Of a DNA stretch of 30,201 bases, positions 2,153 to 26,573 are shown piece by piece. Numbering within the stretch: position 1 is the stretch's first letter; the number at the start of each line of letters is the position of its first letter. Position numbers and translations under genes: made by a program. Source of the stretch: a virus; IMG/VR virus record IMGVR_UViG_3300028739_000021, positions 1 through 30,201 of that record. One strand, written 5' to 3'. The notes beneath the pieces were generated by a model. That model was not told the DNA's origin. It saw only the letters and a list, made by a program, of their open reading frames with translations, and made no database searches.

Positions 2153-3141
2153 TACCTATTCACCCACTTTTGATTGCACAAAATTTGACAAGTTGATAAT
2201 CCATCTCCGCTAACCGTATAAGTAAATAGATCATCACTTGTACCTGTTACCGTTGCAGAATAGGTTAAAGTACTTTTGCCACTAGCTGATATCGATATCG
2301 TACCGACTGTAGTTACCCCTTGTTTGACCGTAATAGTTGTTGCTGTACTTGGTGTACCAATGCAATAAAAATCAGTTGTAGCCATTGTTCCGTTCCTACA
2401 AAGCGGTATTGTGATTATTTGACCTGCCGTAGTAGGATTTGCTAATATAAATTGTTGTATCCATTGTTGGTTATTTAATGATTCTAGACTTTTAGCTGGT
2501 GCAGTTCTAGCATCTGATTTACCAGTAACTAGTTTTTGTAAACTAATAATGCCAGTTAAAAGAGTTGTTAGGTTTCCGCTATATGACGAAAGTAACGTTG
2601 CATCGGTTAAAGTCCTATTGCCAATTGCCAAGTCAGTCGCAGAATTATTAGCAATTGTATCTGCCAATGTTGCATGATTTACAATTCCATCATCATTAGT
2701 GTCGTAAACTGTTTTTAACATATCTCCTATTCCTGTACCGTCTGCACCTTTTGCAACACCTGCATCGATAGTGGATGAATCGCTAAATGTTAATATTAAA
2801 TGACCAGATCCATCGATGTTAGCACCTGTAATACTAACACCATTGGTTCCATTTGCCCCTTTAACAAGTCCAACATCAATAATAGTACTATCCGTTAAGG
2901 TAATCAATAAATGACCACTGAGGTCAATTGAAGCACTAACAATGCCAATTCCGTTATCACCATTAGAGCCATTTAATCCCGCAAAGTAAGTAAGTCCATT
3001 CCACGGAGTAACTCCATTTCCTATTTTCATTTTAATAGGTGTAGTATCTAAAGTGAACGCTAATTCCCTTTGTACTAATATAGGGTTAACGGATTGCCAA
3101 TTTGATTCTATATCACCACGCATCTGAATTATATCAGCCAT
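2152..3141 (-). CDS. Receptor-binding tail protein with Mtd_N-like N-terminal module and tandem 35-residue repeats
   Basis: A 329-residue protein. Residues 1-55 form a small module (RGDIESNWQSVNPIL... LDTTPIKMKIGNGVTPWNGL) like the N-terminus of Mtd and other podovirus fibres, and clearly related to the N-terminus of the neighbouring tailspike. A G/N-rich collagen-like linker (GLNGSNGDNG) follows. Two tandem repeats of about 35 residues (about 64-98 and 101-135) share an I(D)xSGHLxxTxxDSxxIDxGxxKGAxG pattern. The remainder holds a linker and a C-terminal beta-rich domain (about 240-329). The start ATG 3141 has a strong AAAGGAGG. Its role is most likely host-receptor recognition, attached to the virion through the N-terminal module. 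Confidence 0.8.
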   Translation of the reverse strand: MADIIQMRGDIESNWQSVNPILVQRELAFTLDTTPIKMKIGNGVTPWNGLTYFAGLNGSNGDNGIGIVSASIDLSGHLLITLTDSTIIDVGLVKGANGTNGVSITGANIDGSGHLILTFSDSSTIDAGVAKGADGTGIGDMLKTVYDTNDDGIVNHATLADTIANNSATDLAIGNRTLTDATLLSSYSGNLTTLLTGIISLQKLVTGKSDARTAPAKSLESLNNQQWIQQFILANPTTAGQIITIPLCRNGTMATTDFYCIGTPSTATTITVKQGVTTVGTISISASGKSTLTYSATVTGTSDDLFTYTVSGDGLSTCQILCNQKWVNR

Positions 3142-3153
3142 AATAAACCTCCT

Positions 3154-4785
3154 TTAAATTTCTACTTTACATGAAAATTGAACATCACCAGCAACTGATA
3201 AGAAATATACTCCGAATTTTATTGTTATATTTGTTGCATCTACTGCTAATATTTGATTAGGTATTACATCAAACATTCCGCTATTAGTTCTAGCGGTAAC
3301 AGTGCATTTCCAGATAGATGGAGTAGAAACGCATCCATGGGAAATAGTACCTGACTTTTGACCATCGCTGGAAACAGCTACATTTCCAACGGCATATCCA
3401 TCTGTTTTTAATCCTGTGTTATTTGACCATTTAAATTTATTCAAACGATCTGTTCCGGTAACTGACAGAGTTCCTACTAATTTGTTGTTTGATATAACGA
3501 AAGGTCCACCACTTGCTCCGTCAGTTAAAGCTAAACAAATATTACTGTTAATATGCTTACCATTTGTTATTGATACGTTTTTAGTTTGATTATACAAACA
3601 ATCGCAGTTTGTTATATTGGTAAAACTGTTATTATCTTCTGTTACGTTATCAACCCAACTACCTAAATTTATTCCGTATCCACTGTACCCTATCTTATTA
3701 TTAGAAATAACTATGTCGTTTATCGCAGTTGGCGTTGACCCTGCATAGATACCTACGCCTGTACTTCCACCAGTTGCAGCAGCTATATAATTACCATTGA
3801 TTACAGCTTGCTGAACACCAGTTATTCCACCATTTAAATAAATACAAGAACTTCCGCATTGATCTAACATATTATTAGAAATATTAATAAATAATACATC
3901 TTGAACATTAACTTGGTACGATCCAGTGGTTATTAAAGTGCTATCTAATAACCATATTCCTTCTGCTCTTGCACCTACAACAGAAGAAGCAACCTTTACA
4001 CCTTGTCCGATTCCTCCCATATATGTACGTCTTACACCAGAATTTATTAATATTCCAGCTGTTGTTCTGCGTACGTGTACGCAATACGCACTAGCATTAG
4101 TATTTGTCATATAGCAATCTTCTATAAATGTATTTGAAGAATTTATTTCTATTATATCAGAAGAATTACTTGTTAAGTTTTCAAAATAACATTCAACAAC
4201 TTTATGCCCTAATCCATTTTGGAAATTCATAATTTTACCAGAAGTTCCACCATGTTTTAATGCAATTCCAACAAAACTAGCAAAGTAATTTGCAGTAACA
4301 TTAAACATATCACCTGCATTAGTTTTGTATATCATTGTTGATTGTGACCATGATTGCCCACCGACAAGCGTAGTGCTGTTTACAGAGATATTCAACGTAG
4401 ATGTTACCCTATATATACCATCTGGGAAATATATTGCACCTCCTGCATTTAATGCTGCTTGAATAGCACTTGTATCGTCTGCTATATTGTCACCAATTGC
4501 ACCATAATTCTTAACACTATTAATTTGACTATTCCACCTTGTCTTTTCAAAATCAGTTACAAACCTGTTATTTAAATCCTGCGATATAATGCTTGGTGGA
4601 TGGGTTAATGGGTGAATATATCCTTCATAATATCCCATATCATTCCATCTAGTAATTCCATTGCCTATTTTTTGTTTCCAAGGAACAGTATCTGTTACAT
4701 ATCCGATTTGTCCATCAGCTAGAATAGGATTAGCACTAGCCCATTCCGCTTCTATGTCTCTCCTTTGTTGCATTATATTACCCAT
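3154..4785 (-). CDS. Tailspike with Mtd_N-like attachment module and pectate-lyase-like beta-helix
   Basis: A 543-residue protein when started at ATG 4785. That start has GGAGGGGGAG just upstream, whereas an in-frame ATG at 4803 has no such site. Residues 1-55 (RRDIEAEWASANPIL... WKQKIGNGITRWNDM) are the same attachment module as in the next gene. From about residue 90 comes the classic beta-helix opening (VKNYGAIGDNIADDTSAIQAA... GGAIYFPDGIYRV), typical of Pectate_lyase_3 tailspikes. Repeated N-rich rungs follow (ISNNML, INGNYI, ISNNKIG, ITNGKHI). Such spikes usually bind or cleave surface polysaccharide; the catalytic residues cannot be assigned here. The start overlaps the upstream adaptor gene by 8 nt. 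Confidence 0.88.
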   Translation of the reverse strand: MGNIMQQRRDIEAEWASANPILADGQIGYVTDTVPWKQKIGNGITRWNDMGYYEGYIHPLTHPPSIISQDLNNRFVTDFEKTRWNSQINSVKNYGAIGDNIADDTSAIQAALNAGGAIYFPDGIYRVTSTLNISVNSTTLVGGQSWSQSTMIYKTNAGDMFNVTANYFASFVGIALKHGGTSGKIMNFQNGLGHKVVECYFENLTSNSSDIIEINSSNTFIEDCYMTNTNASAYCVHVRRTTAGILINSGVRRTYMGGIGQGVKVASSVVGARAEGIWLLDSTLITTGSYQVNVQDVLFINISNNMLDQCGSSCIYLNGGITGVQQAVINGNYIAAATGGSTGVGIYAGSTPTAINDIVISNNKIGYSGYGINLGSWVDNVTEDNNSFTNITNCDCLYNQTKNVSITNGKHINSNICLALTDGASGGPFVISNNKLVGTLSVTGTDRLNKFKWSNNTGLKTDGYAVGNVAVSSDGQKSGTISHGCVSTPSIWKCTVTARTNSGMFDVIPNQILAVDATNITIKFGVYFLSVAGDVQFSCKVEI

Positions 4786-23845: not shown

Positions 23846-25357
23846 TTATCTCCTTCCCAATACATTATATTTTTGATTGTTGTTGGCGAAAAACTGTCCA
23901 TTGCTATTTTGTTGTTGCCTGATAGTTGATTTCTTTTGCACCGGATACGCAAATGTAAGGCATAAAGCATCTGCTCTATTTGGTGAAGGTACACCGCGCT
24001 TCTTCATATCCTGTTTTGATTCTAGTTTAATCTTACCATCAAGCCTTACCTCATACTCTGGACCAATCAAATCATCATACATTACCTGGTCATCAGGATA
24101 ACTACCGCCATCCTTGAGCCATTGCTTAATTTGAGACCACATATAAGCACGTTTGTTAAGGTAACCTCTATCCGGTGATTCTCCCGCAAACGATACTAAT
24201 GTCCAGTTGCGCCCCATTGTCTTGCCTGCGCTAATTAATCCAGTGCCATAGCCTTGGTCAACAAATACTGCATCTGCTTTCTCTTCATCTTCAAATCTTG
24301 CAAGGTGTCCAGCTAATTCAAAATCATTATCATTCTTTTGATATACTGCAAGTTTCTTACTCATCAATCCCTGTCGTAACCATATTACTGTTTCATCACC
24401 ACCATCCCATGCAGGATCTACTCCTATTATAATTGGTGCAAAGTCGAATTGTCCAATTGATAAGTGTTTGCCTTTACCCATATCAGCCAATGAAGTGGAT
24501 ATAAACTGTCGATCACTGCTAGATGGGAACTGTCCACGCACACGCACCTTAACAAAGTCACTATCCTCACCATAATCTGTAATCCATTCTTCAAGCTGCT
24601 GTTTATTAGTCATAGCTACTGTCCTGCCGTCAATCTGCTTAGTATGCCAGCGACTGCGCAGTTTACCATTAAAACACGATTTAAAACGTCCAGTATTACG
24701 AGTAGGATTACCAAAAGCACACCATATTATTTGTGTGTTAGCATCTGTTAAAGCTCCTTCTGTTACCTCCCATATGATATCTGGTATCGCAGATGCTTCA
24801 TCCATTACTATTAGTATACGCTTTCCCTTGTTGTGTAGTCCCGCAAATGCTTCTGTGTTGCGTTCTGACCACGGTACCATATCTATTCTCCAAGTCTTTG
24901 CATGTTCCGGATCTACACTAGATAATGATGTTGCTTGATAATCAAAGCACTCTCTCCCAATCATTAGCCTATGCCACTTGGCAACCTCTGCCCATGTTTT
25001 AAGTTTAAGCTGATTCTCCGTGTTAGCTGTTACAACTCCCTTGGTATCTTCAAATGTTGCAATTGCCCATAATATAATCCATGCTACTAACGCACTCTTA
25101 CCTATGCCATGACCACTTGCAACAGCAATCCTTATAACGTATGATACTGCCTCACCTACCGTCATTTCCTTGGCTTGTAGACGATTTGTTATGTGTGTAA
25201 GTATTTCTATTTGCCATAAATCTGGCCCATTAAATTCAGATAGTTCATTTTCTCCCCACTTGAAACATGCTTTAACAAATCCTAGTGGGTTGCTACTATA
25301 TGTTGCATGGAATATTGTGTACTGTATTAGGTCTTGTTGTGATTTGTTCGCAGCCAT
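23846..25357 (-). CDS. terL: Terminase large subunit (packaging ATPase and nuclease)
   Basis: A 503-residue protein. Walker A is ASGHGIGKSA (Lys87) and Walker B is ILIVMDEA (Asp186, Glu187). A coupling motif AFGNPTR lies at about 214-220. The C-terminal RNase H-like nuclease shows acidic residues at Asp314 (GVDPAWDGGD), Asp367 (VFVDQGYG) and Asp463 (NRADAL). It cuts concatemeric DNA and pumps it through the portal. The ORF starts 3 nt after the winged-helix-like gene and is followed after 4 nt by the small protein before portal. The phage packaging strategy (pac or cos) cannot be read from this alone. Confidence 0.95.
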   Translation of the reverse strand: MAANKSQQDLIQYTIFHATYSSNPLGFVKACFKWGENELSEFNGPDLWQIEILTHITNRLQAKEMTVGEAVSYVIRIAVASGHGIGKSALVAWIILWAIATFEDTKGVVTANTENQLKLKTWAEVAKWHRLMIGRECFDYQATSLSSVDPEHAKTWRIDMVPWSERNTEAFAGLHNKGKRILIVMDEASAIPDIIWEVTEGALTDANTQIIWCAFGNPTRNTGRFKSCFNGKLRSRWHTKQIDGRTVAMTNKQQLEEWITDYGEDSDFVKVRVRGQFPSSSDRQFISTSLADMGKGKHLSIGQFDFAPIIIGVDPAWDGGDETVIWLRQGLMSKKLAVYQKNDNDFELAGHLARFEDEEKADAVFVDQGYGTGLISAGKTMGRNWTLVSFAGESPDRGYLNKRAYMWSQIKQWLKDGGSYPDDQVMYDDLIGPEYEVRLDGKIKLESKQDMKKRGVPSPNRADALCLTFAYPVQKKSTIRQQQNSNGQFFANNNQKYNVLGRR

Positions 25358-25360
25358 GTG

Positions 25361-25867
25361 TTACACCTTCTTTTCTTGTGCCTGTGCCATAAATTCATTT
25401 AATACCCATTTAGGCAATAATGGCAAACATTCATCTTGAAAATTAATAAATAGTTCCAATGATAACCTTTGTCCTGTCGACATAAAGTAAGCAGGATTTA
25501 AATAGTAGCCTGCATCCAATCGTTTTAATATCTTATTTAATACCATTCTGCGCACAAACTCCCTGCCACGTTTGCCTGATAACTCAACTATCATCCCTAT
25601 TTCATCTTCTGTATACCCTATTATCTTACCTTTATCCTTATAACCTATCATATTAGTATTACCTATCATCAATTGAGATAGATCATAAAGCCTACCTTTA
25701 TCTTGATATGATATTGTTTTTGGCAATACTACATCACGAAACAATCTTGCCCCTGCTTTGTGACTAGGAAATCTATAACCATCTTCATTCATGCTATCCG
25801 AAAAATGTTTATTACTTTCGCTAAGTATTTCTCCATCACCATTAATAACACGTTCATTTTTTATCAA
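25361..25867 (-). CDS. Winged-helix-like DNA-binding protein between the terminase subunits
   Basis: A 168-residue protein with a TTG start (25867) chosen because GGAGG (25873-25877) lies 5 nt upstream; no in-frame ATG is nearby. The middle, KGRLYDLSQLMIGNTNMIGY then KIIGYTEDEIGMIVELSGKR and RRMVLNKILKRL, reads as helix-turn-helix. It is followed by DAGYYLNPAYFMSTGQRLSL ... LFINFQDECLPLLPKWV. A final NP-Y-F strand with a following helix is seen in wHTH proteins of RepL type. Such a protein between terS and terL is not part of the T7 plan. Two palindromes sit just upstream of its start. Likely a regulator or DNA-site recognition protein; function unproven. Confidence 0.7.
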   Translation of the reverse strand: MIKNERVINGDGEILSESNKHFSDSMNEDGYRFPSHKAGARLFRDVVLPKTISYQDKGRLYDLSQLMIGNTNMIGYKDKGKIIGYTEDEIGMIVELSGKRGREFVRRMVLNKILKRLDAGYYLNPAYFMSTGQRLSLELFINFQDECLPLLPKWVLNEFMAQAQEKKV

Positions 25868-25884
25868 TTATACCTCCAATCAGC

Positions 25885-25932
25885 GGGACAAAAATGTCTC
25901 GTTTTGATACCCATATGGGACAAAAATGTCTC
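25885..25932. promoter_or_regulatory. Two identical 16-bp imperfect palindromes, 32 bp apart
   Basis: GGGACAAAAATGTCTC occurs exactly at 25885-25900 and again at 25917-25932. Each copy is an inverted repeat (GRGACA - N4 - TGTCTC). The start-to-start distance of 32 bp is about three helical turns, so proteins bound at both would face the same side. They lie directly upstream of the TTG start of the winged-helix-like gene, in the only sizeable gap of the packaging genes. Candidate binding sites for that protein, as operators, or part of a packaging or replication site. Confidence 0.7.
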
Positions 25933-26011
25933 ACTGTAATTTTATAGATAGTTGATTTTATTGGGTTTGTAAGCATCGTCACCAAATCGACTTAGTATAA
26001 CTACTTAATCG

Positions 26012-26440
26012 TTAGCTATTTCCTCGTTCCCTAGCAGCTTTTAATTCATCAGCCAATCCTCCTGTTACCGTTACCTCTTGTTCTGTTTTATCTTTCCATC
26101 CATAATTATTCTTAAGATTGAATATTACGCCTGCAGGGTTCTTTGCAGTATATAAATGTTCCTCTGCATAATTGTGGCATTTCATCTTTGCGTGTGAAAT
26201 AGTGTCAAAAAATTCATCATCTTTACTATAATTTAATAAGTTTTCCCTATTAGTATCCAATGCAATACACAACCCAGTAATTGTAAATGGTCTAAACTGT
26301 ACTGTCTCAAATCCAACTACATCACCATTTTTATTATATAGTTTTTCTTCACGAAAACACGATTCAAAATATCCATCAATTAAAACCTTCATATCTTCTA
26401 CACATTTAAACTTCTTAGGTCTACCAACCTTTTCTGCCAT
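26012..26440 (-). CDS. terS: Terminase small subunit
   Basis: A 142-residue protein when started at ATG 26440, which has AGGAGGGG 7 nt upstream. A longer in-frame reading from 26461 would contain that site. The N-terminus has a KVGRPKKF basic arm. The central part reads RPFTITGLCIALDTNRENLL (HTH-like) and YSKDDEFFDTISHAKMKCHN; then comes AKNPAGVIFNLKNNYGWKDK, the conserved motif of this small-terminase group (GxxFxLKNxxGWxD). It ends in an acidic/helical tail. It recognises phage DNA at the packaging start and loads the large subunit. It is the first gene of the late operon. Confidence 0.88.
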   Translation of the reverse strand: MAEKVGRPKKFKCVEDMKVLIDGYFESCFREEKLYNKNGDVVGFETVQFRPFTITGLCIALDTNRENLLNYSKDDEFFDTISHAKMKCHNYAEEHLYTAKNPAGVIFNLKNNYGWKDKTEQEVTVTGGLADELKAARERGNS

Positions 26441-26477
26441 ATTTACCCCTCCTAAAATCAATTCTAAGCTACTTTAT

Positions 26478-26544: not shown

Positions 26545-26573
26545 TTGACATTAAAATTCAAACATGTTATAAT
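26545..26573 (+). promoter_or_regulatory. Perfect consensus promoter of the rightward mini-operon
   Basis: TTGACA (26545-26550), a 17-nt spacer and TATAAT (26568-26573). The start would be near 26580, giving a leader of about 50 nt before ATG 26631. It points away from the late operon and towards the early operon end. Confidence 0.85.

Follow-up and report, generated by a model that had tools for sequence, protein, structure and literature searches.

The winged-helix gene located between the terminase genes in a 30,201-base stretch of viral DNA (hereafter, the window) probably encodes an autoregulated DNA-binding protein that heads the terL/late transcription unit and acts most likely as a repressor. 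Judging by the sequence and the predicted structure, we consider it fairly likely that this phage protein binds two dyads upstream of its own gene, with negative autoregulation of that gene, terL and the late genes as the outcome. The observations behind this reading are the paired dyads, their preserved spacing, their association with the gene across homologous phages, the predicted fold, the covariation of the recognition helix with the operators, and the finding that a complete-looking prophage has no further sites.

Gene Neighborhood and Twin Dyads

The gene (25361-25867, minus strand; 168 aa, TTG start according to the ORF call) is preceded by the terminase small subunit gene terS (26012-26461, minus strand; PF16677 GP3_package, 2.3e-20; phrog_606, 4e-28) and followed by an epsilon15-like large subunit gene terL (23846-25357, minus strand; phrog_2, 7.7e-38), whose product is 51-56% identical to the TerL proteins of epsilon15 and phiV10. 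The ORF call and the terminase profile matches confirm the sequence-only reading, which had placed a TTG-start gene between the two terminase subunits. The stop codon of the winged-helix gene and the ATG of terL are 3 bp apart, and an SD-like GGAGG lies between the TTG start codon and the nearer dyad. A perfect extended sigma-70 promoter (TTGACA-17-TATAAT with TG) is found on the plus strand at 26545-26573, directed toward a short cysteine-containing ORF and divergent from the packaging genes.

The sequence GGGACAAAAATGTCTC has exactly two copies, one at 25885-25900 and the other at 25917-25932, whose starts are 32 bp, or three helical turns, apart; read on the gene strand the sequence is GAGACATTTTTGTCCC, with the core GACA-TTTT-TGTC. 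Each 16-bp copy is an imperfect dyad in which five of the six arm positions pair. The gene-proximal putative operator dyad (25885-25900, minus strand) ends 17 bp before the start codon and is conserved in contigs L006 and L010, drifted dyads being found at other homologs; the gene-distal one (25917-25932, minus strand) is its exact copy 32 bp upstream. A scan of the window showed that the duplicated 16-mer noted earlier before the TTG gene is real, and the proposed search for it in the rest of the genome, carried out over the whole record, returned just these two copies, with no third one at ≤3 mismatches in 30,201 bases (shuffled-sequence expectation, 0.25).

Protein Family and Predicted Fold

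The protein belongs to phrog_31110, a family of unassigned function (8e-56 over residues 2-167), whose profile is matched at full length by all 16 members compared. Nothing credible was found for the window protein in Pfam and NCBIfam, a PDB sequence search gave chance-level matches only (e.g., TubR, E 0.39), and no description of the gene was found in the literature. The AlphaFold model, built on a 16-homolog alignment, has a mean pLDDT of 86.9 and replaced a poor model from five sequences (pLDDT 70.6). Over residues 49-131 it resembles many winged-helix proteins, including RepA-type initiators, MepR, and CRP, with Z up to 7.5 and none of them standing out. A winged helix-turn-helix (wHTH) DNA-binding domain is thus predicted at approximately residues 49-131, with the recognition helix at approximately residues 98-110, and the earlier label "winged-helix-like" is supported by the model and the structure comparison.

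No match to the window protein was obtained by tblastn in 50,697 isolate phages or in 72,556 plasmids. Scans of IMG/VR and GTDB contigs yielded about 27 distinct homologs (34-81% identical), all from metagenome viral contigs or MAG contigs, with none contributed by isolated phages; some reside in Clostridia-type MAGs (Peptococcaceae, Syntrophomonadaceae). An initial scan of bacterial genomes gave no homolog, a second one gave three MAG loci, and genomes of the same class added one homolog among 113 and no further ones among 98.

Nearly all homologs adjoin terminase genes, the usual place being between terS and terL or ahead of both, and the terminases beside them fall into several unrelated families. 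The window, L092, and L130 have an epsilon15-like TerL protein (L092 and L130 as judged solely from sequence resemblance). The TerL of L006 and L065 is Terminase_3, and L010 encodes a similar protein; L007 has a relative of Terminase_6N, and the TerL of L099 is of the phrog_9 type. A separate TerS gene of the GP3_package, Terminase_2, or phrog_83 families was identified in the window, L006, L007, L103, and L093, while L006, L093, L065, and L108 carry a separate RinA-type phrog_36 gene.

Several of these loci have further peculiarities. In L141 a homolog appears to be fused behind a GIY-YIG-like nuclease domain (847-1701), a second winged-helix-like gene being situated just upstream of the fusion (244-774). 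In L006 an HNH-like homing endonuclease gene (3615-4184), which may lie in an intron, apparently splits terL (2511-4656). A Peptococcaceae prophage has a match to the Rfam int-alpA RNA (L108, 7064-7129, plus strand; 38.5 bits) upstream of an HNH gene.

Conservation of the Dyad Pair and Covariation with the Recognition Helix

Pairs of 16-bp dyads were scored by a script upstream of the 27 homologs, with 130 other genes from the same contigs as controls. In 18 of the 27 homologs the top-scoring pair was spaced 31 or 32 bp apart, vs. 6 of the 130 control genes; a pair score of ≥31 was reached by 15/27 and 1/130. The binomial p-value for the enrichment, ~3e-18, overstates its significance, as it ignores relatedness. 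Additional pairs were recognized by eye in L103 (32 bp), L150 (31 bp), and L152 (30 bp), and in L103 the pair stays with the winged-helix gene despite a different order of terS and terL. The repeats of L131, also 32 bp apart, are direct and show hardly any palindromy, and a clear pair was not found upstream of five homologs (L007, L097, L099, L113, and L141). Absence of the sites upstream of homologous genes would have spoken against the sequence-only reading; in the related phages searched, pairs at 30-32 bp recur.

The two dyads are identical in the window, L006, and L010, and most of an upstream element E (see below) is unchanged among them as well, while the stretch between this element and the dyads has diverged. 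In more distant homologs the letters drift, with the dyad and its spacing mostly kept: the arms are GACA/TGTC, CACA/TGTG, or GGCAA/TTGCC, and examples of drifted sites are GGGACATGAACGTCCC (L101), TGCACATTTTTGTGCA (L105), CGGCAATCTGTTGCCG (L130), and AGGCAATAAATTGCCT (L098). Conserved dyads at the protein's own gene, expected of phage autoregulatory DNA-binding proteins, are a feature of this family. On the strength of the sequence comparison, the arrangement of gene and twin dyads is one that recurs in distantly related phages with otherwise unrelated packaging machinery.

No further good copy of the own site was found in the window or in any homolog contig examined. A Peptococcaceae MAG contains a complete-looking prophage whose genes run from a serine-recombinase-like and a repressor-like one to the late genes: it has the dyad pair solely before the winged-helix gene, and also encodes a RinA-like protein and, separately, an initiator-like protein whose gene has no such sites. 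The restriction of the pair to the protein's own gene favors a protein that regulates itself over one with a wide regulon and over a main replication origin.

Covariation was analyzed in 20 homologs with readable sites. The distance between operators correlated with the distance between residues 96-113 when the rest of the protein was controlled for (partial Mantel 0.48, p = 0.0002). When 12-residue windows along the entire protein were compared, the highest value was given by the one that begins at residue 97, in the predicted recognition helix. GGAC half-sites go with K or R at residue 99, CACA half-sites with F or Y, and GGCAA half-sites with R99 combined with Q100; an exception is L107, with R99/Q100 and a GGAC-type site. 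The number of independent covariation events is small, since the homologs with CACA sites constitute one clade (support 88/85) and the placement of the GGCAA pair is not resolved. The natural operator variants GACA, CACA, and GGCAA with matching changes at residues 99-100 provide a ready system for studying specificity.

Upstream Element and Proposed Mode of Action

The conserved element E (GATTAAGTAGTTATACTAAGTCGATTTGGTGACGAT; 25975-26010, minus strand), identical over 36 bp in the window and L006, directly follows the terS stop codon. It includes the dyad AGTA-GTTA-TACT (25994-26005) and a TATACT hexamer. Conserved counterparts of element E occur approximately 100-190 bp upstream of many homologs, with a dyad such as AGTA-GTTA-TACT or, in other clades, TATATAT. 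The search for a sigma-70 promoter of the winged-helix gene returned matches at the level of shuffled sequences, and no -35 box was found at element E; as a guess, the element may be an activator-dependent promoter.

As the dyads lie between this candidate promoter element and the ribosome-binding site, the simplest action of a protein bound there would be negative autoregulation. We infer that one dimer would sit on each 16-bp dyad and that the spacing of three helical turns would place the dimers on the same DNA face, favoring cooperative binding. The accumulating protein would then block transcription into its own gene and into terL and the late genes just downstream, and this block would determine when or how strongly the packaging genes are expressed. 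The preference for repression over activation is a guess. The idea of an autoregulated late switch thus gained support in its first part, from twin sites that travel with the gene at 30-32 bp, covary with the helix and are found only before the gene; the late switch is plausible from the position of the gene and would involve an effect on terL and the late genes.

The palindromes could alternatively act as RNA hairpins, in a terminator or in translational control, rather than as DNA sites. They immediately precede the ribosome-binding site, the antisense strand obtains a terminator-like score, and in L092, L097, and L099 a hairpin followed by a T run is present between element E and the dyads. 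Yet on the sense strand one outer pair is A.C in the window, L006, and L010, with an unbroken stem of only about 4 bp; the constant spacing of 31-32 bp fits helical phasing, not RNA; the sites covary with the DNA-recognition helix; and no Rfam family matches at the locus, so that a known RNA was rejected as a candidate. Hairpins as the function of the twin palindromes are accordingly very improbable. In the homologs that have the hairpin with a T run, attenuation may take place between element E and the dyads.

Replication and Packaging as Alternative Functions

The sites might be origin iterons at which the protein, as a replication initiator or a truncated paralog of one, opens the DNA. Such a role is suggested by the distribution of the motif GACATTTTTGTC: a scan for its pairs returned 78 viral contigs, family members among them, and many of these contigs carry phage initiator genes with HTH_36-type domains, several beside DnaB helicase genes, the spacing often being 31-34 bp. 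The pairs are in or near the HTH_36-type initiator genes in L011, L013, L018, L022, L030, L036, L042, L064, L072, and L076, and the repeat reads in frame as DKNV within such genes. The DKNV-reading repeats are likely, from their sequence context, to be origin iterons common to many unrelated phages, which keeps this explanation alive for the window. (IS21 transposon ends, at one point guessed from antisense frames to be the source of the motif, were discarded, as the overlapping ORFs proved to be HTH_36-type initiators.) The top-ranked Foldseek matches of the model also include RepA-type plasmid initiators (4pt7, 4pql, 4pta, and 5kbj), and the structure matches in BFVD include replication initiator and RepL proteins. 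However, the matches to the RepA N-terminal domain (E 0.02-0.08, Z 6.2-7.5, thus below 8) are not significant and are level with those to unrelated wHTH proteins. None of the 16 members matches RepL (PF05732) or RepA_N in Pfam at E ≤ 1, and none matches HTH_36, whereas initiators carrying the same repeats do. There are two repeats and no array, the protein is short with no recognizable helicase-loader part, and its gene lies among packaging rather than replication genes. At other positions L065 encodes a helicase similar to DnaB and one more replication-like protein, and the initiator-like gene of the Peptococcaceae prophage is devoid of these sites. The suggestion that the gene marks a replication site is weakened above all by this prophage and retains the iteron-like use of GACATTTTTGTC in other phages' initiator genes in its favor; we regard an initiator acting at the twin sites as rather unlikely, and the sites as less likely to be a main replication origin.

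The nearly constant proximity to the terminase genes points to another possibility, an accessory packaging factor that binds the twin sites near a genome end, as at cosB, and helps the terminase to choose or cut phage DNA. The winged-helix protein gpNu1 of phage lambda binds cosB in a comparable position. Moreover, contigs L093 and L097 share the same homologous first base, and so do L099 and L141, although they come from different metagenomes; these coincident starts, 220-260 bp upstream of the first winged-helix gene, suggest physical genome ends (cos) in the clade of the four contigs. Against such a factor, the TerL proteins that accompany this one family are of several unrelated kinds, and the sites go with the gene, not with the terminase. 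The clade with putative ends has the least clear twin sites; the corresponding place in the window phage is terS coding sequence, and contigs of the window phage are broken at unrelated positions or continue across it. The proposal that the gene marks a packaging site is thus upheld as far as the ends predicted in one clade, and weakened by the indistinct dyads of that very clade, and a packaging factor of this kind appears unlikely. A cos or pac site conserved by the terminase was ruled out as a general explanation because the TerL families differ. It is also conceivable, though quite unlikely, that the protein is a terminase-independent factor of the packaging locus, in which twin sites heading the terL operon near the packaged end would couple expression of the motor to DNA maturation, the whole being a portable module among phages with unrelated terminases.

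Relation to Known Systems

An autoregulated winged-helix protein at the start of the packaging genes would differ from the late regulators of Gram-positive phages (RinA, Ltr, ArpU). None of the 16 members matches phrog_36 or phrog_248, the profiles of these regulators, and RinA-type genes are encoded separately in the same phages. In addition, the winged-helix gene is at or after the start of the terminase genes, and its sites are downstream, not upstream, of the possible promoter. With RepA_N and RepL initiators and HTH_36 replisome organizers it has in common a winged-helix fold, predicted here, and tandem sites about three helical turns apart, GACATTTTTGTC being present in several initiator genes; it is unlike them in the lack of significant sequence or structure matches, in having just two sites, upstream of the gene, in its location among packaging genes, and in the separate initiator-like gene. 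Small terminases of the lambda gpNu1 type resemble it as winged-helix proteins encoded beside terL, with sites near the predicted genome end in one clade, but here the true terS is a separate gene, none of the 16 members matches TerS families, and the family is tied to no one TerL. Finally, MarR-type autorepressors such as MepR, a weak fold match, are winged-helix proteins that regulate from palindromic operators by their own gene; unlike them, none of the 16 members matches the MarR family in Pfam, and dimerization and ligand parts were not recognized in the winged-helix protein.

The analysis provides a phage family that had no assigned role with a functional hypothesis, a candidate binding site, and candidate specificity residues. 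The family points to a control point where the packaging genes begin, one that is common to phages with unrelated terminases, and an iteron-like DNA word of some phages precedes a putative packaging-locus regulator in others. The same paired dyads are also found beside small genes that by eye resemble HicA/HicB toxin-antitoxin genes, in L083 (approximately 570-740), L016, L035, L056, and L062.
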